This document shows, piece by piece, positions 1,812 through 49,367 of a DNA stretch of 50,049 nt. Source of the DNA: a virus. The position numbers and the translations under genes are program-made. A model generated the notes under the pieces. The model was given only the letters and a program-made list of their open reading frames with translations, was not told the origin of the DNA and searched no databases. Where the stretch lies: IMG/VR virus record IMGVR_UViG_3300036859_001054, positions 1 to 50,049 of that record; one strand, given 5' to 3'. How positions within the stretch are numbered: the stretch's first letter is position 1; every line of letters starts with the position of its first letter.

Positions 1812-3338
1812 CTACGCCAGCTTCTTCGCGATCCTCTCCTCGAGGATCTCCTTCACCGTGAAGGGGATGATCGACTTGTGGCTTCGGCGGAAGAACCCGT
1901 CGATCTCGCGCAGCGCGTCCTCGGTGTAGTCGAACGAGACGAAGTACCCCTTCTTCCGGTTCTCCCGCATCATGACCGCTTCGAAGGAGTCGATGTCCGG
2001 CCGCCCCGCCTTGTCCCGTTGTTTGACCTGGATCGGATACCAGTCGTCCATGAAGTCGAACTCGCCCTTCTTGGCGCCGCGTTCCTCGACAATCGTCGAG
2101 ACGGGGAAGATCCGGCCGTCGATCCCCATGTCCCCGACCTTGGCCTTGTTCCCCACCCCGCCCAGGGCGATGACCGCCCAGTTCTCGAACTCGAACGGCG
2201 GGATCGCGCGCAGCTTGTCCTCGGTCCAGGGGAGGTCGCGCACGATGAAGCCGCGCCCCGCCTTCCAGAGCGCCTCGTCCTCCCGCATGCCGCAGATGTC
2301 GCGGAGGCGCTTCGCCATGACCCGGCACGCCGTCGGCGAGATGTCGATCCCGATCCATTGGCGGTTCAGCTTTTGGGCGGCGACGAGCGCGGTCCCGCAA
2401 CCGCAGAAGGCGTCGAGGACGATGTCTCCGCGGTTGCTGCTGGCCTCGACGATTCTCTCGAGGAGCGCGAGCGGCTTCTGAGTCGGATAGCCGAGACGCT
2501 CCGCACTCCCCGAGATTACAGGTTGGATATCCTCCCAAAACGTTTGGAGAGGAACGCCCGGCATTTCATCGATGTAATGCTTCAGCATCGGCATTCCGGT
2601 CGTGCGGTAGTAGATCTGTCCGGCGTCGTGGAACGCCTGCATCTTTTCCTTGGAGTAGGCCCAGTACCGCCCCCGGTAAGGCAGCACCTTTCGACCATCG
2701 GGAGTGGTCCATTCGTAGGAGGTGTCGCCACCCGGCTTGTTCGCCGTCATGTCCGAGACCCTGAATCGACGCCCCGACTCGTCCTTGTATCGGTAATTCT
2801 GCTCGAGATACTCCTCGCTGTAGGCGGTGTGAATCCGATTCCAGGTCCATTCGTCGCCGCGGGCGTAGAAGAAGATCGTGTCGTGGTTCGCCCCGTATCG
2901 CTGGGGATCGTTGTGAGCCTTGGTGCGGCGCCAGACGATCTCGTTCTGGAACTGGTTCTCCCCGAAGATCTGGTCGAGCATCACCTTGACGTAGTGGCTC
3001 GCATGCCAGTCGCAGTGATAGTAAAAGCTGCCCGTCTTCTTCAGGACGCGCGCGATCTCCACGCAGCGGGGCCGCATGAACTCGATGTAGGCTTGGGTCG
3101 ACGCGTGTCGGTCTTCGAATCGCCGCTTCTCCTGGGTCTCCCCCCAGAAGGTCTCATAATTGCGGTTGGAGTTGAACGGCGGGTCAATGTAAGCCAGGTC
3201 GATGCACGCGTCGGGGAGCTTCTTCAGCTGGTCCAGGCAGTCGCCGCAGTAGACGACCTGGGTGTCGATCAGGCGCGAGGAGCGGATGGGGGCCTGGTCG
3301 GATTGCGGAGCTTTGCTCCGCTTGGGCTTGGGAGACAC
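1812..3338 (-). CDS. DNA methyltransferase fused to an Mrr-like restriction nuclease domain
   Basis: Amino-methyltransferase of the beta class: motif IV DPPF (residues 52-55) precedes the SAM-binding motif I (VLDAFCGCGTAL, about 307-318), with TQKPL at 286-290. The intervening 60-280 region would hold the target recognition part. After about residue 375 a separate domain carries the Mrr pattern: ENWAVIALGG, then GIDG (Asp407) and a QVK strand (Gln437, Lys439). These are the D...QxK residues of the PD-(D/E)xK fold. This suggests modification and cleavage in one 508-aa chain. The GTG start has no clear Shine-Dalgarno sequence. The gene follows a ribbon-helix-helix-like gene on the same strand, which might regulate it. 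Methylation is well supported; nuclease activity is inferred from two short motifs. Confidence 0.88.
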   Translation of the reverse strand: MSPKPKRSKAPQSDQAPIRSSRLIDTQVVYCGDCLDQLKKLPDACIDLAYIDPPFNSNRNYETFWGETQEKRRFEDRHASTQAYIEFMRPRCVEIARVLKKTGSFYYHCDWHASHYVKVMLDQIFGENQFQNEIVWRRTKAHNDPQRYGANHDTIFFYARGDEWTWNRIHTAYSEEYLEQNYRYKDESGRRFRVSDMTANKPGGDTSYEWTTPDGRKVLPYRGRYWAYSKEKMQAFHDAGQIYYRTTGMPMLKHYIDEMPGVPLQTFWEDIQPVISGSAERLGYPTQKPLALLERIVEASSNRGDIVLDAFCGCGTALVAAQKLNRQWIGIDISPTACRVMAKRLRDICGMREDEALWKAGRGFIVRDLPWTEDKLRAIPPFEFENWAVIALGGVGNKAKVGDMGIDGRIFPVSTIVEERGAKKGEFDFMDDWYPIQVKQRDKAGRPDIDSFEAVMMRENRKKGYFVSFDYTEDALREIDGFFRRSHKSIIPFTVKEILEERIAKKLA

Positions 3339-3971: not shown

Positions 3972-4319
3972 CTACTTCGCTTCCGCCGCCGAGGGCTGCC
4001 CCGCCGTCTCCTTCGGTCCGAGGAACTGCACGCGGTCGGCCTCGATCGACATCCGCGCCCCTTTGCCCGTCAGCTTGCCCACCACCATCACAGTCCGCCC
4101 CTTCTTCAGGAACTGCGCGCACAGCTCGGCGAGCCGCCGCCAAGCCACCACCGCGACCGTCAGCTCGGTCGTCTTCCGCTCCCCGGTCTCGGCGGCCAGC
4201 TCGGACCGCCGGACCCGGATCGGCATCCGCACGAAGGGGATCCCCGCGGGCTTGTCATACTCCAGCCGCGGATCCGCCTTCAGCGTCCCCACCAGAATCG
4301 CCAGAGAGTAGTCGTTCAC
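3972..4319 (-). CDS. ssb: Single-stranded DNA-binding protein, OB fold
   Basis: The GTG start (VNDYSLAILVGTLK) is fixed by an AGGAGG box 6-7 nt upstream. The first 100 residues follow the OB-fold order of bacterial SSB and PriB: a first strand LAILVGTLKADPRLEY, a strand VRMPIRVRR, then TTELTVAVVAWRRLAELCAQFLKKGRTVMVVGKL, and a last strand MSIEADRVQFLG. At 115 aa it is short. The tail is Ala/Pro-rich and lacks the acidic DDDIPF-type tip of cellular SSBs, as is common in phage versions. It would coat single strands during replication and recombination. It lies far from the recombination genes, at the left end downstream of the tRNA. Assignment is fairly sure. Confidence 0.82.
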   Translation of the reverse strand: MNDYSLAILVGTLKADPRLEYDKPAGIPFVRMPIRVRRSELAAETGERKTTELTVAVVAWRRLAELCAQFLKKGRTVMVVGKLTGKGARMSIEADRVQFLGPKETAGQPSAAEAK

Positions 4320-4383
4320 CGTCGTCCTCCTATTGACATTGGCCTCGTCCGATTCGATACTTGGTTCGTCCTTTCGGCCACCC

Positions 4384-4409
4384 GGGCGCACGGTGTGACA
4401 CGTGCGCCC
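4384..4409. repeat. Perfect 9-bp inverted repeat (hairpin) between tRNA and ssb
   Basis: GGGCGCACG (4384-4392) and CGTGCGCCC (4401-4409) flank an 8-nt loop. On the plus strand the hairpin is followed by ATTTCTGTTTT, so it would work best as a rightward terminator. On the minus strand there is no T-run, and it would form a hairpin in the leader of ssb, after the tRNA. Confidence 0.5.
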
Positions 4410-4431
4410 ATTTCTGTTTTAAAGGCAGGGA

Positions 4432-4521
4432 CGGAGGGGGCGGGGCTCGAACCCGCAAGGCGGTGTGACCCGCCGGAGGCTTCTAAGGCCTCTGCCATTG
4501 TCCTTTTTCGGCCACCCCTCC
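4432..4521 (-). tRNA. Class II tRNA, anticodon UAG (tRNA-Leu by anticodon, serine-like body)
   Basis: A 90-nt cloverleaf folds completely. The acceptor stem GGAGGGG pairs with CCCCTCC. The D arm has A14 and GG18-19. The anticodon stem GAGGC/GCCTC holds the loop CTTAGAA, giving anticodon UAG at 4483-4485. A long variable arm (GGCGG/CCGCC) marks class II. The T arm GCGGG-TTCGAGC-CCCGC is canonical. The anticodon reads CUA (and by wobble CUG), which is leucine. However, the GGAGGGGTGGCCGA 5' half and the discriminator base G73 are typical of tRNA-Ser; bacterial tRNA-Leu normally has A73. No CCA is encoded. It lies upstream of ssb on the same strand. The structure is confident; the charged amino acid is not. 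Confidence 0.88.
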
Positions 4522-4663
4522 ATCACCCGCATTTCAAAGATCGCTGTTTTTTACTACACCAGTTAGACGGGCAGGGGTCCGACTTGTTACAAGAATAAGT
4601 ATGAGAATATGCGAATTCCCGGGAGGGGTCCGGCGGTGGTGAAGGGGCGGTCCCGCTCCCGGA

Positions 4664-4679
4664 TTGCAGACGTCTGCAA
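4664..4679. promoter_or_regulatory. Perfect 16-bp palindrome, candidate operator or ParB site (copy 1)
   Basis: TTGCAGACGTCTGCAA is a perfect palindrome. It lies 4 bp upstream of the -35 box of the promoter at 4684-4713. The same palindrome with identical flanks recurs in inverse orientation at 34782-34797, the exact match being 22 bp (4662-4683 versus 34778-34799). A dimeric DNA-binding protein is the likely partner, either a phage regulator or the ParB-like protein. Confidence 0.6.
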
Positions 4680-33257: not shown

Positions 33258-34508
33258 TCATTCGATCGAGATCCCCGGTCGCGTCGCGTTTGTCGCCTTC
33301 TTCGCACTGAAGTTCTGCCAGCGCTTCACGGCGACGTCGACGAACGCCGGCGAGATCTCCATCGCGTAGACGCGGCGCCCCTCGCGCTCGCCGGCGATGA
33401 TCTGACTGCCCGAGCCCGAGAAGGGCTCGTAGGCGATGCCGCCCGGGCTCGTGTGGTTCCGAATGGGAATCGCCGAGATCTCGACGGGCTTCTGCGTCGG
33501 ATGCAGGCCTTCCTCCATCCCCTTCTGGTCGATCGCCCAGATCGTCGTGAGGTTGGACTGCGGGCGCTGCGCGGGTAGCTTGCCCTCGAGCCACCCGTAG
33601 AAGCACGGCTCGTGCTGCCACATGTAGTGCGAGTGGGTGAGGATCGCCCGAGCCTTCGCCCAGATGATCTGCTGGTGGACGAAGAGGCCGGCGCGCTTCC
33701 AAGCTTCCTCGACGAGGATCTGCCGGCGCGACGCGTGCCACTGGTAGACCGCGGGGTTCTCGACGAGCGCGTGCTTGAGCGCGACGTCGATGAACTGGAA
33801 GAAGAAGTCCGTCGAGGCCTGGGGATCCTTGTACTCGTCCCAGTGCTTGTCCTTCACCTCGGGGCGGTTCGACCAGCTCTGCGGGTGATTGCCGCCCGAG
33901 TAGTCGACCAGGTAGGGCGGATCCGTGGCCATGAGCGCCGCGCGGTCGGACCCCATGAGACGCTGGACGTCCTCGGGCTTCGTCGAGTCGCCGCACAAGA
34001 GCCGGTGTGCGCCCAGCTGCCAGAGATCGCCGGGCTGGGTGATCGCCTCCTCGATGGGCTCGACGATCTCGTCCTCGTCGCCCGGGCCGCAGGCCAGCGG
34101 GTCCGCGGCGAGCAGCTCCTCGAGCGTCGCCTCCTCGAGGCCGGTCACCGTGAGGTCGAGCTCCCGCTCCTGCAGCTCCTGGACCATCTGCGCCAGGAGC
34201 CGCTCGTCCCAGTCCGACAGCTCGCCCAGCTGGTTGTCCGCGATCGTGTAGAGCGCGGCCTGGTCGTCGGACACGTCGGCGACCACGACGGGGATCTCCG
34301 TCACGCCCTTCTTCTTGAGCGCCTCGAGGCGGCCGTGGCCGGCCAGGATCCGGTACGTGCCCTTCTGCACGATGATCGGGGCGAGGTATCCGAAGCTCTC
34401 GATCGAGCGGGCGATCGCGTCGACCGCGTGGTTCTTCCTCGGGTTCTTGTCCCAGGGCCGGAGCTGGCCGATGGGGACGTTCTCGAGCGCGGGCATGGGG
34501 ATCTTCAT
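33258..34508 (-). CDS. ParB-type N domain fused to a DNA methyltransferase
   Basis: The start at MKIPMPALENVPIGQLRPWD is preceded by GGAGG about 9-11 nt upstream; the extra N-terminal residues in the open frame overlap the preceding gene. Residues 1-95 have the ParB/Sulfiredoxin-type fold (QLRPWDKNPRKNHAVDAIAR, TYRILAGHGRLEALKK, DDQAALYTIADNQLGELS). Residues 185-400 are an amino-methyltransferase: GDLWQLGAHRLLCGDST, DPPY (about 217), THSHYMWQHEPCFYGW, TQKPVE and YEPFSGSGSQIIAG (motif I). Such fusions are common in phages and probably modify phage DNA against host restriction or label packaging. The methyltransferase call is strong; the ParB-like domain's role is unknown. Confidence 0.88.
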   Translation of the reverse strand: MKIPMPALENVPIGQLRPWDKNPRKNHAVDAIARSIESFGYLAPIIVQKGTYRILAGHGRLEALKKKGVTEIPVVVADVSDDQAALYTIADNQLGELSDWDERLLAQMVQELQERELDLTVTGLEEATLEELLAADPLACGPGDEDEIVEPIEEAITQPGDLWQLGAHRLLCGDSTKPEDVQRLMGSDRAALMATDPPYLVDYSGGNHPQSWSNRPEVKDKHWDEYKDPQASTDFFFQFIDVALKHALVENPAVYQWHASRRQILVEEAWKRAGLFVHQQIIWAKARAILTHSHYMWQHEPCFYGWLEGKLPAQRPQSNLTTIWAIDQKGMEEGLHPTQKPVEISAIPIRNHTSPGGIAYEPFSGSGSQIIAGEREGRRVYAMEISPAFVDVAVKRWQNFSAKKATNATRPGISIE

Positions 34509-34762
34509 GGCGCCTTCACCTCCTTCACACGCACGACGCACTTCATGGGGATCGAGATGTCCCCCGATCCCTTCACCCGCACGCCTGGGTTCTTCTCGCC
34601 CGACAAGCTGGCCGCCAGCGTGATCGTCTTGCGGTTACGGTCGACCAGCCAGCCCACCGAGCGGCAGAAGAGCGGCTCCCTCGACTGGTCCCTGATGTAC
34701 TCGAGGGAGTTCCAGCCGTTGAACGAGGACGAGTCCATCCACTCGACCAGCACCAGCTTCAT
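34505..34762 (-). CDS. Small conserved phage protein (85 aa)
   Basis: A short phage protein of the style MKLVLVEWMDSSSFNGWNSL ... PLFCRSVGWLVDRNRKTITL ... MKCVVRVKEVKAP. I have seen the pattern (a strand, 'D(S/A)....GW', 'S.GWL..E....V.LA..') often in phage genomes, always without known function. Its ATG (with GGAGG upstream) overlaps the coiled-coil gene's stop, and its stop overlaps the next ATG. It therefore belongs to one coupled run. Its start lies 20 nt from the palindrome at 34782-34797. Confidence 0.65.
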   Translation of the reverse strand: MKLVLVEWMDSSSFNGWNSLEYIRDQSREPLFCRSVGWLVDRNRKTITLAASLSGEKNPGVRVKGSGDISIPMKCVVRVKEVKAP

Positions 34763-35535
34763 GGGGCCTTCACCTCCGACTTTGCAGACGTCTGCAATCT
34801 CTTGGCCGCGGTCGCCTTCTCCTCCTCGAGCTCGTGGATTCGCTCGCGCGCGGAGACTAGCTGGTGCTCGAAGCGGGCCTTGTCCTTGAGCACCTGGTCC
34901 CGCTCGCCCTCGGCCGCGTCCCGCGCGCGCTGCATGGTCTCGGCCGTCAACTCGAGCGCCTTCTCCCTCTGCTTGCCGGCGTCGATCTCCTTCCGCAGCT
35001 CGGCGAGGTCGAGGTTCTTTCCTGCCATGGCGTCCAGGTACATGCGGATCTCGCCGTTCAGGCGCGCGACCTCCCGGCGCAGAGCGTCCCGGTCGGGGCC
35101 GATCTCCTTCACGGTGCGGGCCAGACGACGCACGCGGCCGGGGAGCTCTCGCGGATTCGCGTCCAGGCCACCGACCGGGATGGTGATCCCCGCCTCCATG
35201 AACTCTTTCTGGGCCTCCTTGAGGGCGCGTTCATGGAGATCGTTGAGCTGCTTGGCATTGACGAACTCGGTGCGCGCGCGGCCGCGCTCGATCTTCAGCG
35301 AGTCCCGGCTTTCCCGCATCGCGTCCTTCTGAGCGGTGAGGTCGGCGATCTGGGCCTCGAAGCTGGCCACGACGCCCTTCGTCAGCTCGAACTTCCGCAT
35401 CTCCTCGCGCGTCATCGGCTTGACCTTCGCCGACTCCTTGACCTCGACCGCCGGCGAGGCCTCGGGTGGGGGCGAGGCCGGCGGCGCCGGTGCGTCGTCG
35501 ATCGTCGGACCGGGGGGCGTTGCGTCCATCGTCAT
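34759..35535 (-). CDS. Coiled-coil hypothetical protein (258 aa)
   Basis: After a Pro/Ala-rich first 40 residues the rest is almost continuous coiled coil with clear heptads (FEAQIADLTAQKDAMRESRD, DRDALRREVARLNGEIRMYL, KARFEHQLVSARERIHELEE). The C-terminus (KRLQTSAKSEVKAP) is encoded over the palindrome at 34782-34797. No ATPase or other motif. It lies in a run of coupled small genes, possibly an accessory of replication or packaging. Function unknown. Confidence 0.6.
   Translation of the reverse strand: MTMDATPPGPTIDDAPAPPASPPPEASPAVEVKESAKVKPMTREEMRKFELTKGVVASFEAQIADLTAQKDAMRESRDSLKIERGRARTEFVNAKQLNDLHERALKEAQKEFMEAGITIPVGGLDANPRELPGRVRRLARTVKEIGPDRDALRREVARLNGEIRMYLDAMAGKNLDLAELRKEIDAGKQREKALELTAETMQRARDAAEGERDQVLKDKARFEHQLVSARERIHELEEEKATAAKRLQTSAKSEVKAP
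34782..34797. promoter_or_regulatory. Perfect 16-bp palindrome (copy 2)
   Basis: TTGCAGACGTCTGCAA, identical to the copy at 4664-4679. On the minus strand the match extends to 22 bp (34778-34799). Here it lies inside the 3' end of the coiled-coil gene, 20 nt upstream of the ATG of the 85-aa gene. A site for a dimeric protein inside a reading frame points to an operator or centromere rather than coding constraint. Confidence 0.6.
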
Positions 35536-39256: not shown

Positions 39257-39669
39257 GGGCGGGTGCCCTCCGGCTCTCGACGGTCGATGAAATGCTCCGG
39301 TACGCTGACCTTCCATTCGCCGTGGGGATGACACTCGGGTGAATGGTCGAAGGAAACGACGGCGAGCTTGGAGATCGGCATGCGCGTCCGCTCTGTGACG
39401 TAGCCGAAGCAGACCATCCGGATCCGGCAGACGCCGTGATGTTCGGGCTGGACGACCTGAGAAGTTCCCTGGTAGCCGAATCCCTTGATGCAGGTGTCGC
39501 AGAAGACCGCGATCGCGCCGTCGGGAGGCAGCTTGCACACGACGCACCCCCAGCCGGTTCCGGCGATTGGGGCCTTGAGGTGCAGCTGGGTCACGTTTCG
39601 GACATTCGCTCCCTCGCGCCTGGTCAGGCCGCAGCAGCAGCACGCCCCGAAGTCGTCAACGGGCGTCAT
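39253..39669 (-). CDS. Cys/His-rich small protein (138 aa)
   Basis: Several metal-binding pairs: FGACCCCGLTR, GCVVCKLPPDG and FCDTCIKGFGYQG, then a His-rich part (QPEHHGVCRIRM, FDHSPECHPHGEW). Two zinc sites are likely. It is coupled by ATGA to the DUF1643 gene and to the sigma factor gene. This treble-clef-like plan occurs in several phage accessory proteins of unknown role. It could act with the sigma factor, but that is inferred from coupling alone. Confidence 0.6.
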   Translation of the reverse strand: MTPVDDFGACCCCGLTRREGANVRNVTQLHLKAPIAGTGWGCVVCKLPPDGAIAVFCDTCIKGFGYQGTSQVVQPEHHGVCRIRMVCFGYVTERTRMPISKLAVVSFDHSPECHPHGEWKVSVPEHFIDRREPEGTRP

Positions 39670-40214
39670 CCTGGTCCTCCCGCCAGCCGCCGGCGCAGAG
39701 TGTGAATTGCTCGCGCGTGCAGTTGGCAAACGCGCGACTCCGACAGCCCCATCAGCTGGCCGATCTGCTTCAGGGTGTAGTTGCCGCGGTAGTAGTGGTC
39801 GAGGACCTCCACCTGCTTCGCGGTGAGGATCTCGCGCAGGCGCCGCCAGAGGTCCCGGTCGCCGGCGATCCGGACCGGATCCTCGCGGCGGTCGACCGCC
39901 TCGGGAAACTCGTGCGGGTAGCGGAGATCCGGCGCGAAGCCACTCATGGACTGCATCCCGATCGCCGGTTCCTTCCGGCTCCGCACCAGGCGTGGGACCC
40001 AGTCGAGCTCGCGCAGCTCGTCGAGCACGTGGCCGCGCATCCGGTGCGGGGCGTAGGTCGAGAAGCTGACCCCGCGCTTCGGGTCGAAGCGCCGGATGGC
40101 GTCGACGAGGCCGAGCGCCGCGGTCGACCGCACGTCGTCCGTGTCCACGTGGTTCGGCAATCTGTCTTTCATCCGGTCCGCCAGGTACGTGACCATTCCC
40201 CACCGCTCCCGCAA
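39666..40214 (-). CDS. Phage-encoded sigma factor, FliA/sigma-28-like
   Basis: 182 residues. The TTG start is supported by GAGGAG six nt upstream (an internal ATG at 40196 is the alternative). Region 2 is clear: VDTDDVRSTAALGLVDAIRR, FDPKRGVSFSTYAPHRMRGH, VLDELRELDWVPRLVRSR. Region 4 is TAKQVEVLDHYYRGNYTLKQ, IGQLMGLSESRVCQLHARAI. Region 3 is shortened and region 1 absent, as in FliA-type factors. It would redirect host RNA polymerase, most simply to late genes. It ends the coupled gene run that starts at 38236. Function as a sigma factor is well supported; its target promoters are not known. Confidence 0.86.
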   Translation of the reverse strand: MRERWGMVTYLADRMKDRLPNHVDTDDVRSTAALGLVDAIRRFDPKRGVSFSTYAPHRMRGHVLDELRELDWVPRLVRSRKEPAIGMQSMSGFAPDLRYPHEFPEAVDRREDPVRIAGDRDLWRRLREILTAKQVEVLDHYYRGNYTLKQIGQLMGLSESRVCQLHARAIHTLRRRLAGGPG

Positions 40215-40254: not shown

Positions 40255-40881
40255 TCAAAACGTCTCCACTTCGGAGGCCACCTCCTCGAGGCGCGCGGCC
40301 TGCTTGAGCTGCTTCTCCGCGACCGCGGTGATCCGCTCCGCGCTCTCCCTGAGGAGCCGGACGCGCAGGCGGATCTGCTGGATCAGCTCGGTCCCATCCT
40401 GGCCGGCCTCGGGGTCCACCCGGCGGGCCCGCCTCGAGTTATCGCGCGGCTTCCGCGGTCCGCCGCGCCTCGGGGCCCGCGTCGGCTTCTCGCTCTTCGG
40501 GGTTCCGTCGCAGTGCTTCTCGTGCTTGCCTCGGGGCCCGGCGGCGCCGCCCAACTGGCGGCCGCATCCGCGCCGGCAGGGGCCGGCCTCGCTGAGCGGG
40601 GGCAGGGGTTCGTTCTTGGCCACGTTCGTCTCCTCTCTCTCGGGTTCGGGTACGGGTTTCGGATCAGGCCGTTGAGCGTCGCCATCGGTCGGCGGTCGCG
40701 CATCGGGTATGCAATGGGGGGGGGTGACCCCTCCCGGACTTCGGACGGCCGATGTGGCGAAGCGGTAGAGGCAGCGGTTGGTGGTGCACTGCCAGACGAA
40801 GAGGACGCCGTCGCGGCCGCAGGCGTCGGAGGGGCCCCAGCACTCGGGGCAGGGCGGGCTCTTTGGAATCCCCTCTCCCAT
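40255..40881 (-). CDS. Zinc-binding hypothetical protein with an internal start (208 aa)
   Basis: The start is MGEGIPKSPPCPECWGPSDA with AAGGAGAGCGACTC upstream. The first 45 residues carry CPECWGPSDACG and VWQCTTNRCLYRF (zinc ribbon). A Pro-rich linker follows. The second half begins VAKNEPLPPLSEAGPCRRGC, which also has its own AGAGGAGACGAAC box and could start independently. CRRGCGRQL...H-x3-C makes a second zinc site like one in the gene before it. The C-terminus is a helix ELIQQIRLRVRLLRESAERI. The frame overlaps the open frame 40383-41156 by nearly 500 nt. Confidence 0.6.
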   Translation of the reverse strand: MGEGIPKSPPCPECWGPSDACGRDGVLFVWQCTTNRCLYRFATSAVRSPGGVTPPHCIPDARPPTDGDAQRPDPKPVPEPEREETNVAKNEPLPPLSEAGPCRRGCGRQLGGAAGPRGKHEKHCDGTPKSEKPTRAPRRGGPRKPRDNSRRARRVDPEAGQDGTELIQQIRLRVRLLRESAERITAVAEKQLKQAARLEEVASEVETF

Positions 40882-41156
40882 GAGTCGCTCTCCTTGGTGC
40901 GCGGAATCGGCGCGGATCCGTCGCAGTTCTGCTCGTGGCTGCCGCTCGACAGTTTTCCCCTGAAGTGGCGCCCGCATCCCTTCGCGCAGGGTCGGGTCAG
41001 CGCCTGGCCGTGCTTGCCGAACCGCGGCCGTCCGACCGGGGCGTGCCGCTCGATGTGAGGGCCGAGCTCCTCGGGAGACTTGAACTTGTCCGGACACTCC
41101 GGGCAGTTGAAGACTCGATCTCTGACTTCGGGCCACTTTGCCCCCTCACTCGCCAC
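40383..41156 (-). CDS. C2H2 zinc-finger protein, long overlap with next gene
   Basis: The GTG start is preceded by GGAGGGGGG. The first about 100 residues are protein-like: a C2H2 finger (FNCPECPDKFKSPEELGPHI, ERH), then CAKGCGRHFRGKLSSGSHEQ with NC, a C-x3-C...H-x3-C site like that in the 40255-40881 product. The remaining 150 residues are Pro/Ala/Arg/Ser-rich and lie opposite the other gene's frame; they look like overlap translation. Either the real gene is long, or a stop codon has been lost by mutation or sequencing error near 40880. Role unknown. Confidence 0.5.
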   Translation of the reverse strand: MASEGAKWPEVRDRVFNCPECPDKFKSPEELGPHIERHAPVGRPRFGKHGQALTRPCAKGCGRHFRGKLSSGSHEQNCDGSAPIPRTKESDSWERGFQRARPAPSAGAPPTPAAATASSSSGSAPPTAASTASPHRPSEVREGSPPPIAYPMRDRRPMATLNGLIRNPYPNPRERRRTWPRTNPCPRSARPAPAGADAAASWAAPPGPEASTRSTATEPRRARSRRGPRGAADRGSRAITRGGPAGWTPRPARMGPS

Positions 41157-41199
41157 CGTTCCCCCCTCCGCTCCGCTGCAATCGACTGCAGCCGGTGGT

Positions 41200-42951
41200 T
41201 TACTTCTTGGTCTTCTTCGCCAGCTTGGCCTTGAGCTTGTCGGCCTTCGTGTAGTCCGCGTCGGTGGCGCACTTCGAGCAGATCCCGCAGTTGGTCGCGC
41301 GATCGAGGAGGATCCAACTGCACCCGCCGGGGCAGGCGTTCAGCTCGGTGCATTTGCAGCGGCCGCACGTCGGTTCGGGGAAGGCCTTGCCGGCGTCGGC
41401 GGCCTCCCAAGCGGCCTTCAGCTGCTTCTTGATCTTGTCGACGGGGACCTTCCATCGCTTGCACGCGTCGAGGACCAGCTTCTCGTCGGGCGAGTCGTAG
41501 TCGGCCAGGAGCGTGCACCGGAGGTACCGGATGAGGTCCTTCTCCTTCAGCTTGAGGATGTGCTTGTCGTGCTGGCCGTAGCCCTCGGCCCACGGGAAGA
41601 TCCGCGCCAGATCCTGGGGCTGATCTCCGCGCGACGCGTAGATGGCCAGCTGCTGGAGGTCCTCGAGTTCGAGCTTGGGCGGGCCGGCGTCGACGGCCGC
41701 GATGTAGAGCGCGGTGAGGAGCTCACCATCCCGCTTCTGCTTGAGCGCCGCAGCCTCGGCGGTCTTCTTCTCCTTCTCGATCTGCGCCTGGGTCTTGGGC
41801 TTGGCCGGCGAGGATCCGCTGTAGTCGCGATAGGTCGGCTTGGGATTGTGGACGCTGCAGGACGCCGCGGTGCAGATCTCGATGATCTTCCCGCGGCTCG
41901 CGCCCTCGAACATGATCCCCAGGCCCGCGTTCCGGCACTTCTTCTTCCCGATTCGATGCCATTCGCCCAGTCGCTTCACCCCGGCGCGGCCCTCGACCGG
42001 CGCCAGCCGCCAGTTGTACTGCTCCTCGGAGATCACGACGACCTTGTCGTCCTGGGCCTTCAGCTCCTTGATCTTCAGGTCGATCCAGGCGTTGAACTTG
42101 TCCTTGAAGCAGGCGCGGTCCGTGCAGACCGTGTCCTTCTGGATCTCGGGGAAAAGGCCGGGGCTGTTGCCGGTCCGTTTCGGGCAGGTCGCGCAAGGGC
42201 CGGCCTTCGGGACGAGGTCGGCGTCCGCCATGTCCCAGGGCATCTTCGCGAGGTCGGTGTGGATCTCGCCCTCGATCCAGTTCGACAGATCCCGGACGGT
42301 GATGAGCGTCTTGGCGGCCGACTTCTTGTGGCCCCAGTCCTCGGGATCTCCGTCGGCGACGTCGACCTCGTGGACGCAGCGGCCGAGCGCGGCCTTCTGA
42401 TCGTCGGGGACCAGGCGCGCGATCAGGACGGCGTGGCCGGCCGTGATCCGATCCTCCAGAAACGCCTTCTTCGCCGGATCGATCAACTCCGCGAGCTTGA
42501 GGCGCTGGTAGATGTACGAGCTGGACTTCCCGACCTTCGCCGCCAGCCCGTCGACGTCGTACCTGCCCGTCGTGAGGAGCGACTGGTAGCCCTCGCCTTC
42601 CTCGAGCGGGTGCACGTCCTGGCGCTGCAGGTTCTCAATCACCTGCGCTTCAAGCGCCTGGTCGTCGCTCAGCTCCCGCACCAGGACCGGGATCTCGGAG
42701 AGCCCCGCCTTCTTCGCGGCGCGGTACCGGCGCGCCCCGGCGACGATCTCGAAGTGGCCGTCGACCGGCCGCACGAGCGGCGGGACGATGATGCCCTTCT
42801 CCTTCACGCTCTTCGCCAGGTCCTCGAGGGCCTGCGCGTTGAACGTCTTCCGCGGATTCGTCTTCGACTCCCGAATCTTCTCGAGCGGGAGGATCTTGTA
42901 CGCCTGGTCCTTCGCCTCGAGGATGCCCGTGTCTGCCGTGCCCGTCGTCAT
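41200..42951 (-). CDS. Large ParB/Spo0J-like protein with Cys-rich C-terminus
   Basis: 583 residues. The ParB N-domain shows ILPLEKIRESKTNPRKTFNA, HFEIVAGARRYRAAKKAGLS and VIENLQRQDVHPLEEGEGYQ (residues 106-120). A helix-turn-helix follows at 131-156 (VDGLAAKVGKSSSYIYQRLK). A Cys cluster reads CATCPKRTG...CTDRACFKDKF, as in phage and plasmid ParB relatives. The tail has CGRCKCTELNACPGGCSWIL and CGICSKC, a further zinc site. It may bind the 16-bp palindrome found at 4664 and 34782. The ATG overlaps the HerA-like gene (ATGA). The ParB assignment is strong; the partition role is inferred. Confidence 0.85.
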   Translation of the reverse strand: MTTGTADTGILEAKDQAYKILPLEKIRESKTNPRKTFNAQALEDLAKSVKEKGIIVPPLVRPVDGHFEIVAGARRYRAAKKAGLSEIPVLVRELSDDQALEAQVIENLQRQDVHPLEEGEGYQSLLTTGRYDVDGLAAKVGKSSSYIYQRLKLAELIDPAKKAFLEDRITAGHAVLIARLVPDDQKAALGRCVHEVDVADGDPEDWGHKKSAAKTLITVRDLSNWIEGEIHTDLAKMPWDMADADLVPKAGPCATCPKRTGNSPGLFPEIQKDTVCTDRACFKDKFNAWIDLKIKELKAQDDKVVVISEEQYNWRLAPVEGRAGVKRLGEWHRIGKKKCRNAGLGIMFEGASRGKIIEICTAASCSVHNPKPTYRDYSGSSPAKPKTQAQIEKEKKTAEAAALKQKRDGELLTALYIAAVDAGPPKLELEDLQQLAIYASRGDQPQDLARIFPWAEGYGQHDKHILKLKEKDLIRYLRCTLLADYDSPDEKLVLDACKRWKVPVDKIKKQLKAAWEAADAGKAFPEPTCGRCKCTELNACPGGCSWILLDRATNCGICSKCATDADYTKADKLKAKLAKKTKK

Positions 42952-44726
42952 CGCCCGCCTCCTTGTCCGAAAATCCAGTCCGCGCAACGCACGCGGCCCT
43001 TGCCTGAGTAAGTCGCCATATCCGCCGTCTTGATGGACCCCACGTTCTTCTCGAACCCGCTCGACGCGACGGTCGTGTCGCCCAGGGGCGCGAGATCCTC
43101 TCGGCTCAGGTCCTCGGGGTAGGCTTTCGCCAGCGCCTGGACCAGCTTCGCCATCGGCACCGTGACGGCCGCGACGCACTTCTCGAGGATCTCCGGCGTG
43201 TCGAGCGCGGCGACGTCGCCGGCGAGGGCGCGGCCCTCGTCGGTGAGCCGGTAGCAGCTGGGCTCTCCGTACTCGAGGAGGCCCCGGACCCGGAGCGTCC
43301 CGACGTTCTTCTCGTAGCCGCTCGAGGCGTGGGTCGTGTCCGCGATCGGGGCGACCCACGTGCGGCGCAGCTGCGTGAAGCCGAGGCCTTCGAGCCGCTT
43401 CGCGGCCTGGAGGATCTTCAGTTGCGGCCGCGTGAGCTCGGAGCCGTTGCCCTCGTGGGTTGCCTCCGACGGCGCCGGCGGAACGATCCGCGGCCGCGGC
43501 GCGGGGATCGGGACGGGGCGGCGCTCGAGGACGTTGACGGTGGGGGTCTCGGTCCGCTTCGCGAGGGCCGTGGCGATCGACTTCGCGCTCTCCTTCGTGT
43601 GGAGCGCCGCGACACCCAGCGCGTCGGCCGCGGTGGTGAGGCGCACGACGGTCCGCTCGAGTGTGGCGCGGTCCTTCTGCGACAGGACCGGGACCTCGAC
43701 GATCTTCGGTTTTACGGGCTTGAGAAAGGCGGGCGTCGGGACGAGCGTGGGCACGGCCTTCGAGCGCTTCAGCTGGAGCTCGAGCTCGTGGATCCGCTGC
43801 AGGAGGAGCTTGGGGTCCTCGCGCTTGGCCTTCTCGACCGTCTCCGACATCAGGGCACGCAGTCGATCGAGGTCGACCGGCGCCAGGCGCTTGGGCTCGC
43901 GGAGGACCTCGCCGGGCTTCGGGGTCTTGCCGCTGTCGTAGGTCTCCCGCTCCCGGATCTTCACCTGGCGGAAGATTCCCTGCTGCGGCCAGCAGACCCA
44001 CACGGTGCCGCGCTTGAGGGACGGCAGGGACTGGAGCAGCTCCTGCAGCTGGTCCACCGTGATGTCCTTGCCCTCGGCCCAGTCGACGATCGCCTTCTTG
44101 TCGCGCTTGTCGGTGGTCTGCCCCGCGATCAGGATCCCCGCTTGGGAGAGTACGTTCTTGCTCACCGCGGCCGAGCGCTGGGAAAGGATCGTCCCGCCGA
44201 TCCCGTTGATGCGGCCGCGCTTGAAGATCCGCTCGACGGCGCCGAGGCAGCGGCGCTCTTCCGGCATGGGGTTCTGCGGGGCGAACTGGTCGCCCTCGTC
44301 GAGGAAGAGGTGGATCGGGGTCCGGTTCTTCCGGTAGAGCCGCGTCGTGAAGGCCTCGACGAACCGCGTCTCCTCCGCGTTCGACTCGAAGCTCTTGAGG
44401 CTCAGGACCGCGGAGATCCCCGTATCCACGATCGTGTCGGCCATGAGCTCCCCGCTGGTGGGGCTGAGCGGCACGTCGCCGTGGGGCCCGCCGAAGATGT
44501 AGACCTCGAAGCCGGCGCGCAGGCCGTCGGCCGACGATCGCAGCCCCCACCAGGCGTCCGTCAGGTCGATCACGCAGACCTGCTGCTTGTGCTTGAGCAG
44601 CTCCTCCGCGATGACGGATCCGGTGTAGCTCTTCCCCATCCCCGTCCGCGCGAGCGTGGCAATCTTCTCGCACAGGATGTCGAGCGACAAATTGAAGTCT
44701 TCGGAGATCCTCAGCTTCGCCGTCAT
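42948..44726 (-). CDS. HerA/FtsK-like P-loop ATPase with tandem C-terminal winged helices
   Basis: 592 residues. Walker A RTGMGKSY (27-34) and Walker B PIHLFLDEGD (137-146). The arrangement KHKQQVCVIDLTDAWWGLRS, GGTILSQRSAAVSKNVLSQA and GILIAGQTTDKRDKKAIVDW matches DNA-translocating HerA/VirB4-type ATPases. After a linker (265-430) come two similar winged helices: 432-503 (ILQAAKRLEGLGF...HASSGYEKNVGTLRVRGLL) and 523-583 (VQALAKAYPEDLS...VASSGFEKNVGSIK). Upstream it overlaps the wHTH gene and downstream the ParB gene (ATGA both), so the three are made together. It is probably a DNA motor acting with ParB; specific role unknown. Confidence 0.82.
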   Translation of the reverse strand: MTAKLRISEDFNLSLDILCEKIATLARTGMGKSYTGSVIAEELLKHKQQVCVIDLTDAWWGLRSSADGLRAGFEVYIFGGPHGDVPLSPTSGELMADTIVDTGISAVLSLKSFESNAEETRFVEAFTTRLYRKNRTPIHLFLDEGDQFAPQNPMPEERRCLGAVERIFKRGRINGIGGTILSQRSAAVSKNVLSQAGILIAGQTTDKRDKKAIVDWAEGKDITVDQLQELLQSLPSLKRGTVWVCWPQQGIFRQVKIRERETYDSGKTPKPGEVLREPKRLAPVDLDRLRALMSETVEKAKREDPKLLLQRIHELELQLKRSKAVPTLVPTPAFLKPVKPKIVEVPVLSQKDRATLERTVVRLTTAADALGVAALHTKESAKSIATALAKRTETPTVNVLERRPVPIPAPRPRIVPPAPSEATHEGNGSELTRPQLKILQAAKRLEGLGFTQLRRTWVAPIADTTHASSGYEKNVGTLRVRGLLEYGEPSCYRLTDEGRALAGDVAALDTPEILEKCVAAVTVPMAKLVQALAKAYPEDLSREDLAPLGDTTVASSGFEKNVGSIKTADMATYSGKGRVRCADWIFGQGGGR

Positions 44727-44989
44727 GCGGTCCTCCCGAAGAGCTCGCCCTGGGCCTTCTCGACGAGCGTGTAGCGATAGATCGCGGCGCCGCGGTCGGT
44801 CCGCTGCTCGAAGCGGCACTCGATGTGGAAGCCGTTGGCTCGCAGCTCGGCGATGATGGAGTTGACCGCGCAGACCTGGGCCGCCTCGATGATCTCCCGC
44901 GTCGTCGCCCCCTTCGAGCCGCGGGAGCGGAGGAGCTGGAGCACCCGCTTCAGGCGCTCGCTCTTCTCGACCTTCGCCGCGTGCATCAC
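44723..44989 (-). CDS. Small winged-helix protein (88 aa), HTH_39-like
   Basis: 88 residues, MMHAAKVEKSERLKRVLQLL, RSRGSKGATTREIIEAAQVC, AVNSIIAELRANGFHIECRF, EQRTDRGAAIYRYTLVEKAQ. The plan (helix, 'TT.EI', recognition helix '..I.ELR..G..I', wing) matches phage helix-turn-helix proteins of the HTH_39 type. The ATG at 44989 is the start of the transcript segment after a 158-nt gap. The stop overlaps the HerA-like gene start. It is a natural candidate for autoregulation of the operon or DNA site recognition. Confidence 0.75.
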   Translation of the reverse strand: MMHAAKVEKSERLKRVLQLLRSRGSKGATTREIIEAAQVCAVNSIIAELRANGFHIECRFEQRTDRGAAIYRYTLVEKAQGELFGRTA

Positions 44990-45147: not shown

Positions 45148-47427
45148 CTAGGCCGCCCGCGCCTCCTCGTGCTGCAGGCGGACGACGTTCCAGTCGGGGA
45201 ACACGGCGCCCTCGTCGACGTGGGGCGTCATGACGATCGCGGTGAAGTGGCCCGCTTCTTCCGGCGGCGCGATGGCGCGGATGCCGGCGAGGAGTTGGGG
45301 CAGGATCTCCTTCGTCTCGCCGGCCTCGACGAGCAGGACCTTGAGGATGCTCGGCCGGATCAGGACGACCGCGGCCGTCATGCCCGCGGCGAAGAGCGTC
45401 CACCCCCCGCCCGACATCGTCTGGATCGGAACCTCGTGGCCGGCAGGGGTCTTCCATCCGATCACGCACACGCCCTGCGACGCGCGGATGAACGCCCGCT
45501 CCTGCCGCCCCGCGGCCTGGAGGAACTCGTTCAAGATCCGGAGGAGCGGCCCCTCGGCGCTGGAGATCTCCCGCTCGCGCTGGCGCTGGAGTCCCCACTC
45601 GATCGCCGAGAACACGGCGTGCTCGGCCTTCGCGGTCTCTATGGAGTCGAGTACGTGGCGGATCTCGGAGTGGGTCGCCTTCGCGTGCGCGAGGGTGTTG
45701 AGCCGGGCCACGGTCTCGTCGAGCTTCTTCTTCAGGTCCTCGAACCCCGTCGCGGCCGCGGGCGGTTCCTGCGCGAGGATGTCGGCCAGGCGCTTGCCTC
45801 CGGACTGCACGGCAACGGCGGCGCGCTCGAGGACGCCTAGGGTGCGGCGGTCCTGCTCCTCGATCTCCTTGATGCGATCGACGATGCCGACCTTGTGGCC
45901 GGTGAGCTCGCGGACGCGCTGCCGCCAGCCCTCGTGCTCCGTCTCGAACTTCTGCCGGCGGTCCTCGCGGGACTTGCGCGACCGGGACTGGAGGCCGGAG
46001 ATCTCCTCGCGGATCCGCTTGGCCTTCTCGACCTTGTCGACGTTTGACTTCGAGATCTCCGCGGCGCGGGCTTTGAAGTCGACGAGCGCGGCCTTCGCAG
46101 TGGCCAGCATGTCATCGAGGTGGTCGGGCTCGTCCTTTAGCGCGGCCGCGGCGAGCTCCACCAGGCGCGCCCCGTCTGCCTTCACGCCGTCGACCTTGGA
46201 CTTCGACAGCCGCTGGCCGATCTTCTTGATCTCCGACCAGGGCGACTTCGCCAGTGCCTCGATGTGTTCCTCGAGGGAGGCGACCCGCGCTTCCTGTCCG
46301 GCGACGTCGGGGACGCCGGCGAAGGACGGGGTGAGGTCCGCGAGCTGGGCGTTCAGGTCCTGCGCCCTCTTGTCGAGCTCCTGGGCCTCGTTGTCGGACG
46401 GCTGCTGCGGCGGCGCCTGGTTGGCTTCGTCGAGCGCCCTGTTCGCGTGGGCCAGCTGCGCCTTGAGGTCCTCGAGCTGCTTGACCCGCTCCTCGACGCC
46501 GGCGCGGATCGTCTTGGCGTCCGCGAGTTGGAGCTGCGACGAGTCGAACTCTCTCTGCGCGGCCGCGCGGGCATCCTCAGCCCGCTTCGCGGCGGCGCCA
46601 CGTTCGCGTGCGGCCCCGAGGTCCTGATGGATGGTGACGCGGTCCGCCTCGAGCCGGTCGATCTCGGCCTGGCTCGGTTCGGGGATCTCGGCCGCGCGGA
46701 TCCGGAGCTCGCTCTCGGCGGCCTGCTTCTTCCGGAGTCCATCCGCCGCGCGGTTCTTCTCGTCGTTCGCCCAGGTCAGGGCCCCGATGATCCCCGTCGC
46801 GGTGATCTTGGCGAGGAGATCGTCGCCGACCTCGTCGAGGATCTTGACCTGCTTCTCCGGCGCCATTTCGAGGGCCTTGGTGTAGTCCTTGGGCATCCGA
46901 CTTTCGTCCTTCACGTCGGCCAGGCGCATGGCGATCCACCGGGCCACGGCGACGGCCAGGTCCCGCGGGGACTTCTGGCCGGCCGCGAGGAGCTGCTCGA
47001 TCCGTGCGGCCCGCTGGTTCGGTGTGGCCGCGAGGAGTTGACGGATGTCGAGGCATTCGGCGACGTCGAGCTCCTCGGCGCCGAAGAGTCCGCGGATCTC
47101 CTCCGAGGCTTCCGTCGTCGTGGTCTTGGCGCTCTTGAGCCACGAGGCCTGCGCCCCCTGGACGAACCCGCGCTCCGTGCGGTCGAGCGTCCGGAGGATG
47201 GTGCGCGACTCGTCGATCGCCAGCCGCACCGACATCGACCCGTCGCGCACGAGCGCCGCGGTGTCGGCTGGCCGCTTGCCCAGCGCCGGCACGTACCCGA
47301 TCGCGGCGAACCTCACCGCTTCGGCCGCCGTGGACTTCCCGCTTTCGTTCGGGCCCGTCAGGACGGTGAGCCGTTCCAGCTCGAGGTCGATGTCGTGGCC
47401 CTTCATTCCCTTCGTCGAAATCCGCAT
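45148..47427 (-). CDS. SbcC/Rad50-like AAA ATPase
   Basis: The start MRISTKGMKGHDIDLELERL is preceded by GGAGGAG. Walker A is GPNESGKST at 25-33. The central about 400 residues are coiled coil (EKNRAADGLRKKQAAESELR, QLQLADAKTIRAGVEERVKQ, REEISGLQSRSRKSREDRRQ). Near the C-terminus come TMSGGGWTLFAAGMTAAVVL (signature) and ILKVLLVEAGETKEILPQLL, a Walker B with EAGE rather than DE(A/P). The plan is that of SMC-like SbcC/RecF-type ATPases. It probably assists a nuclease, here the Fe-S nuclease at 48540-49367, in end processing and recombination. No SbcD-like partner is adjacent. The family is firm; partner inferred. Confidence 0.85.
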   Translation of the reverse strand: MRISTKGMKGHDIDLELERLTVLTGPNESGKSTAAEAVRFAAIGYVPALGKRPADTAALVRDGSMSVRLAIDESRTILRTLDRTERGFVQGAQASWLKSAKTTTTEASEEIRGLFGAEELDVAECLDIRQLLAATPNQRAARIEQLLAAGQKSPRDLAVAVARWIAMRLADVKDESRMPKDYTKALEMAPEKQVKILDEVGDDLLAKITATGIIGALTWANDEKNRAADGLRKKQAAESELRIRAAEIPEPSQAEIDRLEADRVTIHQDLGAARERGAAAKRAEDARAAAQREFDSSQLQLADAKTIRAGVEERVKQLEDLKAQLAHANRALDEANQAPPQQPSDNEAQELDKRAQDLNAQLADLTPSFAGVPDVAGQEARVASLEEHIEALAKSPWSEIKKIGQRLSKSKVDGVKADGARLVELAAAALKDEPDHLDDMLATAKAALVDFKARAAEISKSNVDKVEKAKRIREEISGLQSRSRKSREDRRQKFETEHEGWRQRVRELTGHKVGIVDRIKEIEEQDRRTLGVLERAAVAVQSGGKRLADILAQEPPAAATGFEDLKKKLDETVARLNTLAHAKATHSEIRHVLDSIETAKAEHAVFSAIEWGLQRQREREISSAEGPLLRILNEFLQAAGRQERAFIRASQGVCVIGWKTPAGHEVPIQTMSGGGWTLFAAGMTAAVVLIRPSILKVLLVEAGETKEILPQLLAGIRAIAPPEEAGHFTAIVMTPHVDEGAVFPDWNVVRLQHEEARAA

Positions 47428-47505
47428 CTGCTCCTCCATTCCGTCATGCAACCGTTCACCGGGAGGCCCCCGCTTCGGAGGCCCCCCGCGTTTGCGGTCG
47501 GACGA

Positions 47506-48525
47506 CTACCGACCGAACAGGGTGGACCCGCCTTTGGAGGGCTTGTCCGCCCCGGGCTTGGCGGCGCCGCCGGCGGGCGGTGCCTGGCCCTTCGACTCGG
47601 CGATCTCGCGTTCCTTGATTCGAGCGATCTCCTCCGGGGTCATGGTCATGGGAGGATCCTCGCCCTCGTCGGATCCGGGCTCGCGCGTGGTCTCGGCCTT
47701 GAGCGTGCCGGCGGCCGTGGTCGCGTCGTTGACGGGACCGACCGGAGCCTTCGGTTCGGCCGGCGGGAAGAGCTCGGCGACGGTGACCTCGCCGTTCTCG
47801 AGGGCCTTCTTGTCGCCGCGGAAGTCCGCGACGTCGCGCGTGGTCCACTCGGCCATCGGCTTGCCGGCCTTGGCGACGAGCTGCTCGGCCGTCACGCCCC
47901 TCGTCTTGAAGTAGGCCTCGATCTGCGTCTTGAACTCGTCGAGCTTCTTCGGGTCAATACCCCTCTGGACCGCGTCCTTCGCCTTCTCGATTGCGCGTTC
48001 GACAAGCCAGCGCGGCACGGCGTTCACGACGACGTTTCGGATCGCCTTCGACTGGCCGATCTGGAGGGCCATGTCGAGCTTGCGGTCCGGGTCGTACTTG
48101 CCCTGGACCGCGTTCTTCCGCTGCCGGAAGACGCGCTCGGTCTGGAATCCCTTCTCGAGGTCGATGAACCTGGGCGTGATGTAGAAGGCCTCGTCCGTCT
48201 CGCTCAGCTCCACAGTGAGCGCGGCGTTCGTCCACTCCCGGGCGAGGCTGTTCGCGAGGCCGATGGACGGCCCCTCGATGCGCTGGCCTCCGGCGGACCA
48301 GTTGTAGTAGAAACTGTCCCCCGCATACTCGGCCTCGCGCTCGATCGCCTTCACGATCTTGTCGAGGTCGCGGGGCCTCTGCACCGTGATCGCCGTCACG
48401 AACGGCGTCCCAGACTTCATCAGGGACCGTCCCCGTTCGAGCAGCTCAGCGGGCACCCCGAGGGGCTCTGATCCCGGCATGGGCTCGGGTTCCCTGATTG
48501 CCGGTCCTCCGCGGTCGTTCGCCAT
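47506..48525 (-). CDS. Phage recombination protein, candidate single-strand annealing protein
   Basis: 339 residues. I recognise the pattern DLDKIVKAIEREAEYAGDSFYYNWS, GQRIEGPSIGLANSLAREWT and AFYITPRFIDLEKGFQTERV, RKLDMALQIGQSKAIRNVVV, AVPRWLVERAIEKAKDAVQ from phage genomes, where it sits beside exonuclease genes. The C-terminal 130 residues are disordered and charged. Its location between an SbcC-like ATPase and a RecB/Cas4-type nuclease makes a strand-annealing role (RecT/Erf/Rad52-like) likely. There is no direct motif proof. The start MANDRGGPAIREPEP is the first Met after an AAAGGAGAC-type box. Confidence 0.7.
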   Translation of the reverse strand: MANDRGGPAIREPEPMPGSEPLGVPAELLERGRSLMKSGTPFVTAITVQRPRDLDKIVKAIEREAEYAGDSFYYNWSAGGQRIEGPSIGLANSLAREWTNAALTVELSETDEAFYITPRFIDLEKGFQTERVFRQRKNAVQGKYDPDRKLDMALQIGQSKAIRNVVVNAVPRWLVERAIEKAKDAVQRGIDPKKLDEFKTQIEAYFKTRGVTAEQLVAKAGKPMAEWTTRDVADFRGDKKALENGEVTVAELFPPAEPKAPVGPVNDATTAAGTLKAETTREPGSDEGEDPPMTMTPEEIARIKEREIAESKGQAPPAGGAAKPGADKPSKGGSTLFGR

Positions 48526-48539
48526 CGCCGTCTCCTTTC

Positions 48540-49367
48540 CTATTCCTCGCCCTTCGCCGCAGCGGCCATCCGCTGACTGTTCACGTAAGGGCATGTGTCC
48601 CAGTAGCCGCACCACTTCGGGGAGCAGATCCACGACCCGACGCCGGCGGGGGCGTAGATCCCCGCCTGGCGCGCGCGGATCATCACGTTGATCCGGTTGA
48701 AGAGGGCGCGGCGGTCCGCCTCCGTGCGGGTCGTCGAGAGGACCTGGTGCTTCGGTCCGGACTTGAGATCCACGAGCACGTCGAGGTCGATGCCGGTCGG
48801 CTTCTTCCCCGTCTTCTTCTCGTAGAGGTATTCGTAGAGGGTGAGCTGGTTCGACTCGTCCGCGTCCTTCTGGCTCTTCGAGCGGGCCGAAGTCTTGAAA
48901 TCCTTGAGGCGCCCCTGCACCGTCGAGACGTCGATCGTGCCGGCGAGGTCGACCGCGACGTTCGGCAGCTCGACGATGATCTTCTCCTCGACGAGATCCG
49001 GCTGGATGGTGGGCGCGACCTTGTCGGCGTAGAGGCCCGTGAGCGCGGTGACCGAATCGAGCGTCCGCGCGATGGTCGGCTTGAGGCCGATGCTCTGCTC
49101 GTCGGGCGTGAGGCGGAACCCCTCCTTGGACTTCTTCTCCTCGAAGCTGGCCACCGCCGCGTCGATAAGGTCCTTCTTCGGGAGGTCGACGCCGGACTTC
49201 TTCTTCTGCCGGTGGTTGACCTGGGCGGCGCCGTGGACGCCGGATCCGCGGAGCGCGGCCGTGCCCGGCAGGTCCGGCTCGCGCTCGACGTAGTGCCGGC
49301 GGTAGGCTTCCCCGCAGAGCTCGAACTTGGCGAGCTGGGACTGGTGGACTTCGATGCGGTCGGTCAT
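48540..49367 (-). CDS. Cas4/RecB-type Fe-S nuclease (PD-(D/E)xK)
   Basis: 275 residues. Cys18 (KFELCGEAYRRHYV) and a C-terminal trio Cys248, Cys253, Cys259 (SWICSPKWCGYWDTCPYV) form a 4Fe-4S site. His45 (GSGVHGAAQVNH), Asp146 (GTIDVSTVQGRLKDFKTSA) and Asp156-x-Lys158 give the D...DxK nuclease core, followed by a Q-x3-Y helix (QLTLYEYL, 174-178). This is the plan of Cas4 and AddB/RecB-type nucleases. It would resect DNA ends for the annealing protein. It lies 14 nt from that gene. Assignment is strong; DNA polarity unknown. Confidence 0.87.
   Translation of the reverse strand: MTDRIEVHQSQLAKFELCGEAYRRHYVEREPDLPGTAALRGSGVHGAAQVNHRQKKKSGVDLPKKDLIDAAVASFEEKKSKEGFRLTPDEQSIGLKPTIARTLDSVTALTGLYADKVAPTIQPDLVEEKIIVELPNVAVDLAGTIDVSTVQGRLKDFKTSARSKSQKDADESNQLTLYEYLYEKKTGKKPTGIDLDVLVDLKSGPKHQVLSTTRTEADRRALFNRINVMIRARQAGIYAPAGVGSWICSPKWCGYWDTCPYVNSQRMAAAAKGEE

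Follow-up and report, generated by a model that had tools for sequence, protein, structure and literature searches.

An orphan ParB of a probable prophage, its predicted palindromic site and an optional HerA-like companion

Virus record IMGVR_UViG_3300036859_001054 of IMG/VR, a stretch of 50,049 bases that is analysed here over its whole length and referred to as the window, encodes a ParB-like protein of 583 residues (P0003) together with a HerA-like ATPase and a small winged-helix protein (wHTH). The reading that we favour, with a probability of about 0.6, is that P0003 is an orphan ParB that would recognise a palindrome of 14 to 16 bp and load there as a clamp for phage DNA handling, the HerA-like ATPase being optional. 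This reading builds on gene overlaps, domains, the absence of ParA and a statistical tie between the palindrome and parB, all of them read from the sequence; from these we infer binding of the site, loading of the clamp, any contact between ParB and HerA, and the role of the protein. Orphan ParBs are common in phages, yet their targets and tasks are mostly obscure, and a predicted cognate site, also seen in the phages VarioGold and Aval, makes the question experimentally addressable. The genes and sites concerned are the following.

44723..44989, minus strand: 88-aa winged-helix protein (wHTH); HTH_39 3.3e-5, phrog_35777
42948..44726, minus strand: HerA/FtsK-type ATPase, 592 aa; DUF87/HerA central domain 1.8e-6
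41200..42951, minus strand: orphan ParB, 583 aa (P0003); ParB_N 2.3e-28, HTH_ParB 1.6e-12
4664..4679: perfect copy of palindrome TTGCAGACGTCTGCAA, a predicted parS-like site; lies upstream of tRNA-Leu, next to a promoter-like sequence
34782..34797: second perfect copy, likewise a predicted parS-like site, within the last codons of gene 34759-35535 (minus strand)
41176..41191: degenerate palindrome CTGCAATCGACTGCAG, about 10 bases past the parB stop, the same place as intact copies in loci L251, L253 and L270

The three genes are consecutive on the minus strand and, as the initial annotation had it, coupled through ATGA overlaps, which lie at 44723-44726 and 42948-42951. The same annotation mentioned, without coordinates, a palindrome at two loci; this is most likely TTGCAGACGTCTGCAA, which was found by a search for palindromes common to the window and to the loci of the two closest ParB relatives (L092 and L236; such labels, and those beginning with G, are our handles for loci or contigs and for records). 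TTGCAGACGTCTGCAA is a perfect 16-bp palindrome with two window copies, at 4664 and 34782, where 0.10 would be expected at up to three mismatches, and the copy at 4664 abuts the promoter-like sequence TTGACC-18-TAGAGT. By its sequence, the palindrome after the window parB stop (41175) is a degenerate copy of TTGCAGACGTCTGCAA; as a separate repeated site it was rejected, with one extra copy in the window (one mismatch) and none of its kind in L092 or L236. Canonical parS has no match in the window at up to three mismatches. Some exact palindromes belong to a longer palindrome, GACTTTGCAGACGTCTGCAAAGTC, and certain contigs contain four copies (L319, L320, L321, L339, L353 and L356); in the window each copy has one of the two additional arms.

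The tie between the palindrome and parB emerges from the relatives, which were counted in loci of ±10 kb, 80 each for HerA (the best 80 of 145 relatives in virus contigs), ParB and, as a control, DUF5131. At up to two mismatches TTGCAGACGTCTGCAA occurs in 27 of 80 ParB loci, compared with 9 of 80 HerA loci, 7 of 79 controls and 2 of 60 genome loci, and ParB is present in five of the nine HerA loci and five of the seven controls that bear the site. The 14-base core TGCAGACGTCTGCA, with at most one mismatch, is found within parB or next to it in 26 of 80 ParB loci, at a density of 0.168 per kb; the remainder of these loci has 0.0118 per kb. Scrambled palindromes of the same composition, 200 in all, reach a mean of 0.02 loci there and a maximum of 2.

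Two positions dominate among these cores, the parB stop codon and the zinc-finger codons. Around the stop codon (-100..+150) there are 10 copies in 10 of 80 loci, or 0.508 per kb, compared with 0.0040 per kb in 130 ParB-less loci; around HerA stop codons, 19,931 bases contain none. Because they follow the stop, several of the copies at parB stop codons are non-coding. In the finger codons protein coding alone could create a likeness to the palindrome, but the choice of codons and the use of two stretches count against that. Ala-Asp-Val is written GCA GAC GTC in 11 of 19 cases in the finger region, while outside it only 12% of the Ala codons of these 80 genes are GCA, and there are two separate finger stretches, LFADV and ADVCTD, that the palindrome covers.

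Whole records were searched for 50 of the 80 loci of each kind (two records belong to both the ParB and the control sets). Of the 50 ParB records 14 contain the exact core, and of the 50 control records five do, three of which have ParB; among control records without ParB it occurs in 2 of 46 (P = 0.0016), and a reversed-pattern control gave 0 in all 100 rows. Within the DUF5131 loci the site accompanies ParB (5 of 11 with ParB, 2 of 68 without; P = 4e-4), as it does within the HerA loci (4 of 18 and 3 of 62; P = 0.04). Near copies are also present in the cultured phages VarioGold and Aval, three in each, and in two plasmids with three and five, numbers that none of 200 shuffles reached. In VarioGold, Aval and the Comamonas plasmid they lie inside parB and upstream of it. 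The Myxococcus plasmid (L010) has, besides a normal ParA-ParB pair, an adjacent orphan-type ParB; the stretch that was read contains five near copies, and CCGCAGACGTCTGCGG, one of these, directly follows the orphan-type parB. As an observation of its own, the record with the closest ParB (G102, of L092) has one exact core inside a HerA-like gene, at 47794-47807.

Several observations weigh against this tie being the signature of a ParB site. A recognisable site is present in only about a third of ParB loci; no helix-turn-helix (HTH) residue separates the site-bearing ParBs (25) from the site-less ones (23), and their consensus is about the same; and neither the ParB of an Acidisarcina plasmid (L008) nor the orphan ParB of the F plasmid (L314) has a site. 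A scan for the exact 16-mer returned 63 stretches, and among the 50 contigs tested for ParB, a set that leaves out the known ParB cases L309 and L270, the contigs of L326, L330, L336 and L340, and also L374 and L375, ParB exceeded the cut-off in only 10 (12 at E <= 0.001). The ParB-less records G150, G153 and G188 hold two to four copies each; fragments and chance matches account for some ParB-less copies, not surely for all. One window copy stands beside a promoter-like sequence, as would an ordinary operator. The P values of this study are indicative, since related genes are not independent and significance is thereby inflated.

P0003 itself is a ParB homologue that stands outside a parAB operon, as do the orphan proteins of the ParB-CTPase fold. 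It scores 148.6 bits against TIGR00180 (cut-off 58.45), has matches in the PDB down to 5e-39, and consists of a ParB_N nucleoside triphosphate (NTP)-binding fold, HTH_ParB, a C2C2 finger, a helical middle part and a C-terminal Cys ribbon. The finger and the ribbon are the two Cys clusters that had been noticed before. The finger cysteines C253, C256, C276 and C281 are invariant across 49 aligned sequences, and the C2C2 pattern recurs in 70 of 82 relatives, the ribbon in P0003 and 15 of the 82. Box II of P0003 reads GARR, with Ala in place of Glu, and among the 83 family members it is GERR in 26, GARR in 19, GHRR in 16, GSRR in 9, GNRR in 6, another sequence in 2 and not found in 5. The box II Ala aligns with position E93 of the Myxococcus xanthus ParB, which PDB entry 7o0n contains as an engineered E93A variant, and E93A is described in the accessible text of the review PMC9178275 as defective in cytidine triphosphate hydrolysis. 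Nucleotide turnover in P0003 is probably slow. Most of the family has lost the box II Glu, which suggests that these clamps turn nucleotide over slowly or not at all.

The claim that no ParA accompanies this ParB was borne out. ParA (CbiA) has no match in the virus record, and it exceeds the cut-off in none of 50 records of ParB relatives; two sub-threshold P-loop matches were seen, one of which (G107:6895-6981) falls inside a HerA gene (G107:6826-8325). The ParA-binding motif [LFI]G[KR]G[LFI], as defined in the accessible text of PMC12704722, is missing from P0003 and from the first 60 residues of 82 relatives. Classical partition by the window ParB is unlikely because there is neither a ParA nor a ParA-binding motif. 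The partition complex that the initial annotation had considered is disfavoured, since that motif is absent and an integrase is present, and its packaging complex is disfavoured too because the record encodes a normal terminase (TerL). Organisation, recombination or regulation of phage DNA is likelier than classical segregation.

ParB proteins in general are NTP-gated clamps that load at a palindrome and then slide, according to the accessible part of PMC12704722. In the mechanism proposed here the HTH of P0003 would recognise TTGCAGACGTCTGCAA or close variants as its predicted site, and the protein would load onto phage DNA at the palindrome as a nucleotide-gated clamp. From sites inside parB, at its end and at a few positions elsewhere in the genome, it could coat or mark the surrounding phage DNA, and its zinc-finger C-terminal half might engage partners in early DNA handling, be it replication, recombination, organisation or regulation. 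The HerA-like ATPase would then be a DNA-translocating motor from the same early operon and a facultative companion.

How facultative this companion would be can be gauged from its distribution. By tblastn, 20 of 80 HerA loci and 11 of 80 controls contain ParB, while HerA is seen in 12 ParB loci and 6 controls out of 80 each; a profile search gives 18 HerA loci against 11 controls for ParB (P = 0.11) and 12 ParB loci against 6 controls for HerA. Over whole records, 14 of the 50 from the HerA set have ParB above the cut-off, as do 4 of the 50 controls (P = 0.009); HerA is above it in 14 of the 50 from the ParB set and in 5 of the 50 controls (P = 0.02). The excess is only about three times. Both genes are on the same strand in all 33 contigs that hold the two, and tight pairs are seen in L053, L058, L238, L255, L272, L203 and the window, so that the two proteins may be in contact. 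Adjacency is not beyond chance (7 of 33 against 3.84 expected, P = 0.07, by a crude custom gene caller that inserts small open reading frames (ORFs), more pairs appearing adjacent by ORF gap alone), either gene order occurs, and no fusion of HerA and ParB was found in 237 loci. The closest ParB relatives, L092 (64%) and L236 (50%), have no HerA in the locus; the record of L092 has a divergent HerA elsewhere, that of L236 none. The wHTH was found by tblastn in none of 156 loci and its PHROG family in one of 50 records. A co-conserved three-gene system, as initially envisaged, is not supported, with the wHTH all but missing elsewhere, the HerA-ParB association modest, its adjacency not significant and its order variable. 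On these sequence counts HerA is an optional, recurrent companion of ParB and not an obligate subunit.

The presence of a HerA-like motor beside ParB, and of two duplicated winged helices in it, was correctly recognised from the outset. The protein begins with a motor core of the HerA/FtsK type (residues 1-282) with Walker A and B motifs; a coiled coil comes next, and then the two winged helices, which resemble each other. The core matches solved HerA structures with Z scores of 22-29 over about 240 residues (best 29.0 over 243 residues, 8xav_A). An N-terminal HAS barrel is absent, residue 1 of the model aligning with HerA residue 117-118, and the protein is far under the curated NCBIfam cut-offs (38 bits against 850). 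The winged helices lie at 433-503 and 510-586 of the AlphaFold2 model with high predicted local distance difference test scores, and their duplication is visible in the DNA as a 56-nt repeat of 79% identity (43038-43093 and 43299-43354). Further relatives are carried by plasmids of Mycolicibacterium, Clavibacter and Gemmatirosa and by one named phage; the phage locus counts exclude the divergent HerA rows from archaeal genomes (L110 onward), and single-protein scans with P0002 had no match in viral contigs. Among 110 large neighbours of HerA relatives (109 of the 138 listed, together with SbcC from the window), the Pfam families met most often are integrase (13), DUF5131 (10) and ParB_N (10), and the HerA-like gene is therefore an early-region phage gene rather than part of a fixed operon. 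In eight haloarchaeal loci (L110, L124, L129, L133, L135, L144, L146 and L150) a distant HerA-like gene and a ParA-like gene on opposite strands are separated by about 1-2 kb.

There are also other explanations. ParB could be a transcription regulator of the KorB or VirB kind, a clamp at operators that silences or activates distant phage promoters, and this is a tentative, less likely alternative: KorB is a structural match of the window ParB, the copy at 4664 touches a promoter-like sequence, and both KorB and VirB are, in the accessible text of PMC11790492 and PMC10770331, clamps of the ParB type that have no partitioning duty themselves. Most palindromes, however, are inside parB or at its end and not at promoters, a single promoter having been examined. 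That the palindrome is instead the operator of a different phage or host regulator, merely frequent in ParB-bearing phages, is unlikely; copies without ParB in G065, G074, G150, G153 and G188 would fit it, but the strong clustering in and at the end of parB, and a codon choice bent so as to keep the palindrome, count against it.

A different class of explanation starts from the motor. DNA-end processing of the Rad50-HerA type, in which the SbcC-like ATPase, the exonuclease, the phrog_3657 protein and HerA would act jointly in phage recombination with ParB as an accessory, is rather doubtful. The gene order of the window is in its favour, as are a row of SbcD-like, SbcC-like, ParB and HerA genes on one strand in L238 (the SbcD and SbcC labels coming from translations) and a 'chromosome segregation protein' two genes ahead of HerA in phage L001, but HerA records are no richer in an SbcC-type domain than controls (above the cut-off in 6 of 50 against 7 of 50). 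It is quite unlikely that, in a subset of genomes including the window, a HerA-type hexameric translocase with two winged helices takes the part of ParA and works on phage DNA marked by ParB clamps at TTGCAGACGTCTGCAA, for instance moving, resecting or protecting it. The fuller version, HerA as the motor replacing ParA in a partition or transport system of ParB and palindrome, is more improbable still: co-occurrence above the control both ways, the shared strand and the tight pairs at several loci and in the window agree with it, but over the cut-off 36 of 50 ParB records lack HerA and 36 of 50 HerA records lack ParB, and the unexceptional adjacency in both orders, the want of fusions and the integrase count against it. 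The favoured reading remains that of a ParB clamp with its own site. ParA-less phage ParBs are already in print, as the accessible part of PMC12704722 makes clear, and the predicted palindromic site is the element that was not found in the open-access literature. The pairing of HerA-like and ParB-like genes in a prophage was not found there either, HerA, ParB and phage occurring together in few papers.

The setting of these genes is that of a phage. The record encodes an integrase (as stated at first), a terminase, a portal and a major head protein, and its source is therefore a tailed temperate phage or prophage, probably the latter. Both record edges coincide with gene starts (GTG at 1, reverse ATG at 50049), which suggests a trimmed provirus because the ends fall exactly there. 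The trio is not isolated, in that genes for an SbcC-like ATPase, a phrog_3657 protein and a PD-(D/E)XK exonuclease are directly upstream on the same strand.

45148..47451, minus strand: SbcC/Rad50-like ATPase, upstream neighbour, with at most a putative link to the trio
47506..48633, minus strand: phrog_3657 protein, upstream neighbour
48540..49280, minus strand: PD-(D/E)XK exonuclease, upstream neighbour
40383..41156, minus strand: gene region downstream of parB with a C2H2-like motif; related stretch after ParB in L237 and L243
1-1044: integrase, PF00589, 7e-36
3972-4391: single-stranded DNA-binding protein (SSB) gene
4429-4522, minus strand: tRNA-Leu, adjoining the SSB gene and the palindrome at 4664

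An identity of the product of 47506-48633 as a single-strand annealing protein was rejected, there being no informative PDB match. PADLOC models matched only the HerA core and generic ATPases in the window, and no NurA or SIR2/DUF4297 partner is among its named genes, no dedicated search having been made. The record further holds a second ParB_N domain, fused to an N6/N4 DNA methyltransferase (33258-34514, minus strand, phrog_498), an additional DNA methyltransferase (1812-3338, minus strand) and, downstream of the trio, a phage sigma-70 family factor with regions 2 and 4 (39666-40214, minus strand).

Among known systems, the chromosomal ParB/Spo0J of ParABS has ParB_N and HTH_ParB in common with P0003. 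Chromosomal parS has copies inside or beside parB, and the palindrome described here, of 16 bp with an ACGT centre, likewise has copies in or beside parB. In contrast to ParABS there is no ParA and no ParA-binding motif, the predicted site has another sequence, P0003 adds zinc fingers and about 380 residues, and the box II Glu is mostly replaced in the family. KorB of plasmid RK2 and Noc are ParB-type proteins with tasks other than pulling DNA; both are structural matches of the window ParB in the N-terminal domain and the HTH, whereas their C-terminal parts, and their sites, differ. The HerA translocase, which works with NurA or with SIR2/DUF4297 defence partners, shares the motor core, but the window protein is without the HAS barrel and has added winged helices. 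A ParB-like protein of the F-plasmid leading region (P0018), beside ssb and psiB, is likewise an orphan, SopA/SopB being a separate pair there; its identity to the window ParB is 29% over 165 residues only, and the 28-kb F-plasmid stretch has no palindrome. The orphan ParB-CTPase-fold proteins of phages and mobile elements (Kaljevic et al. 2025, PMC12704722) are, in the accessible text, given neither a cognate site nor a HerA; they share with P0003 the ParB fold, the lack of parA, the lack of a ParA-binding motif, the mobile-element context and the added domains.

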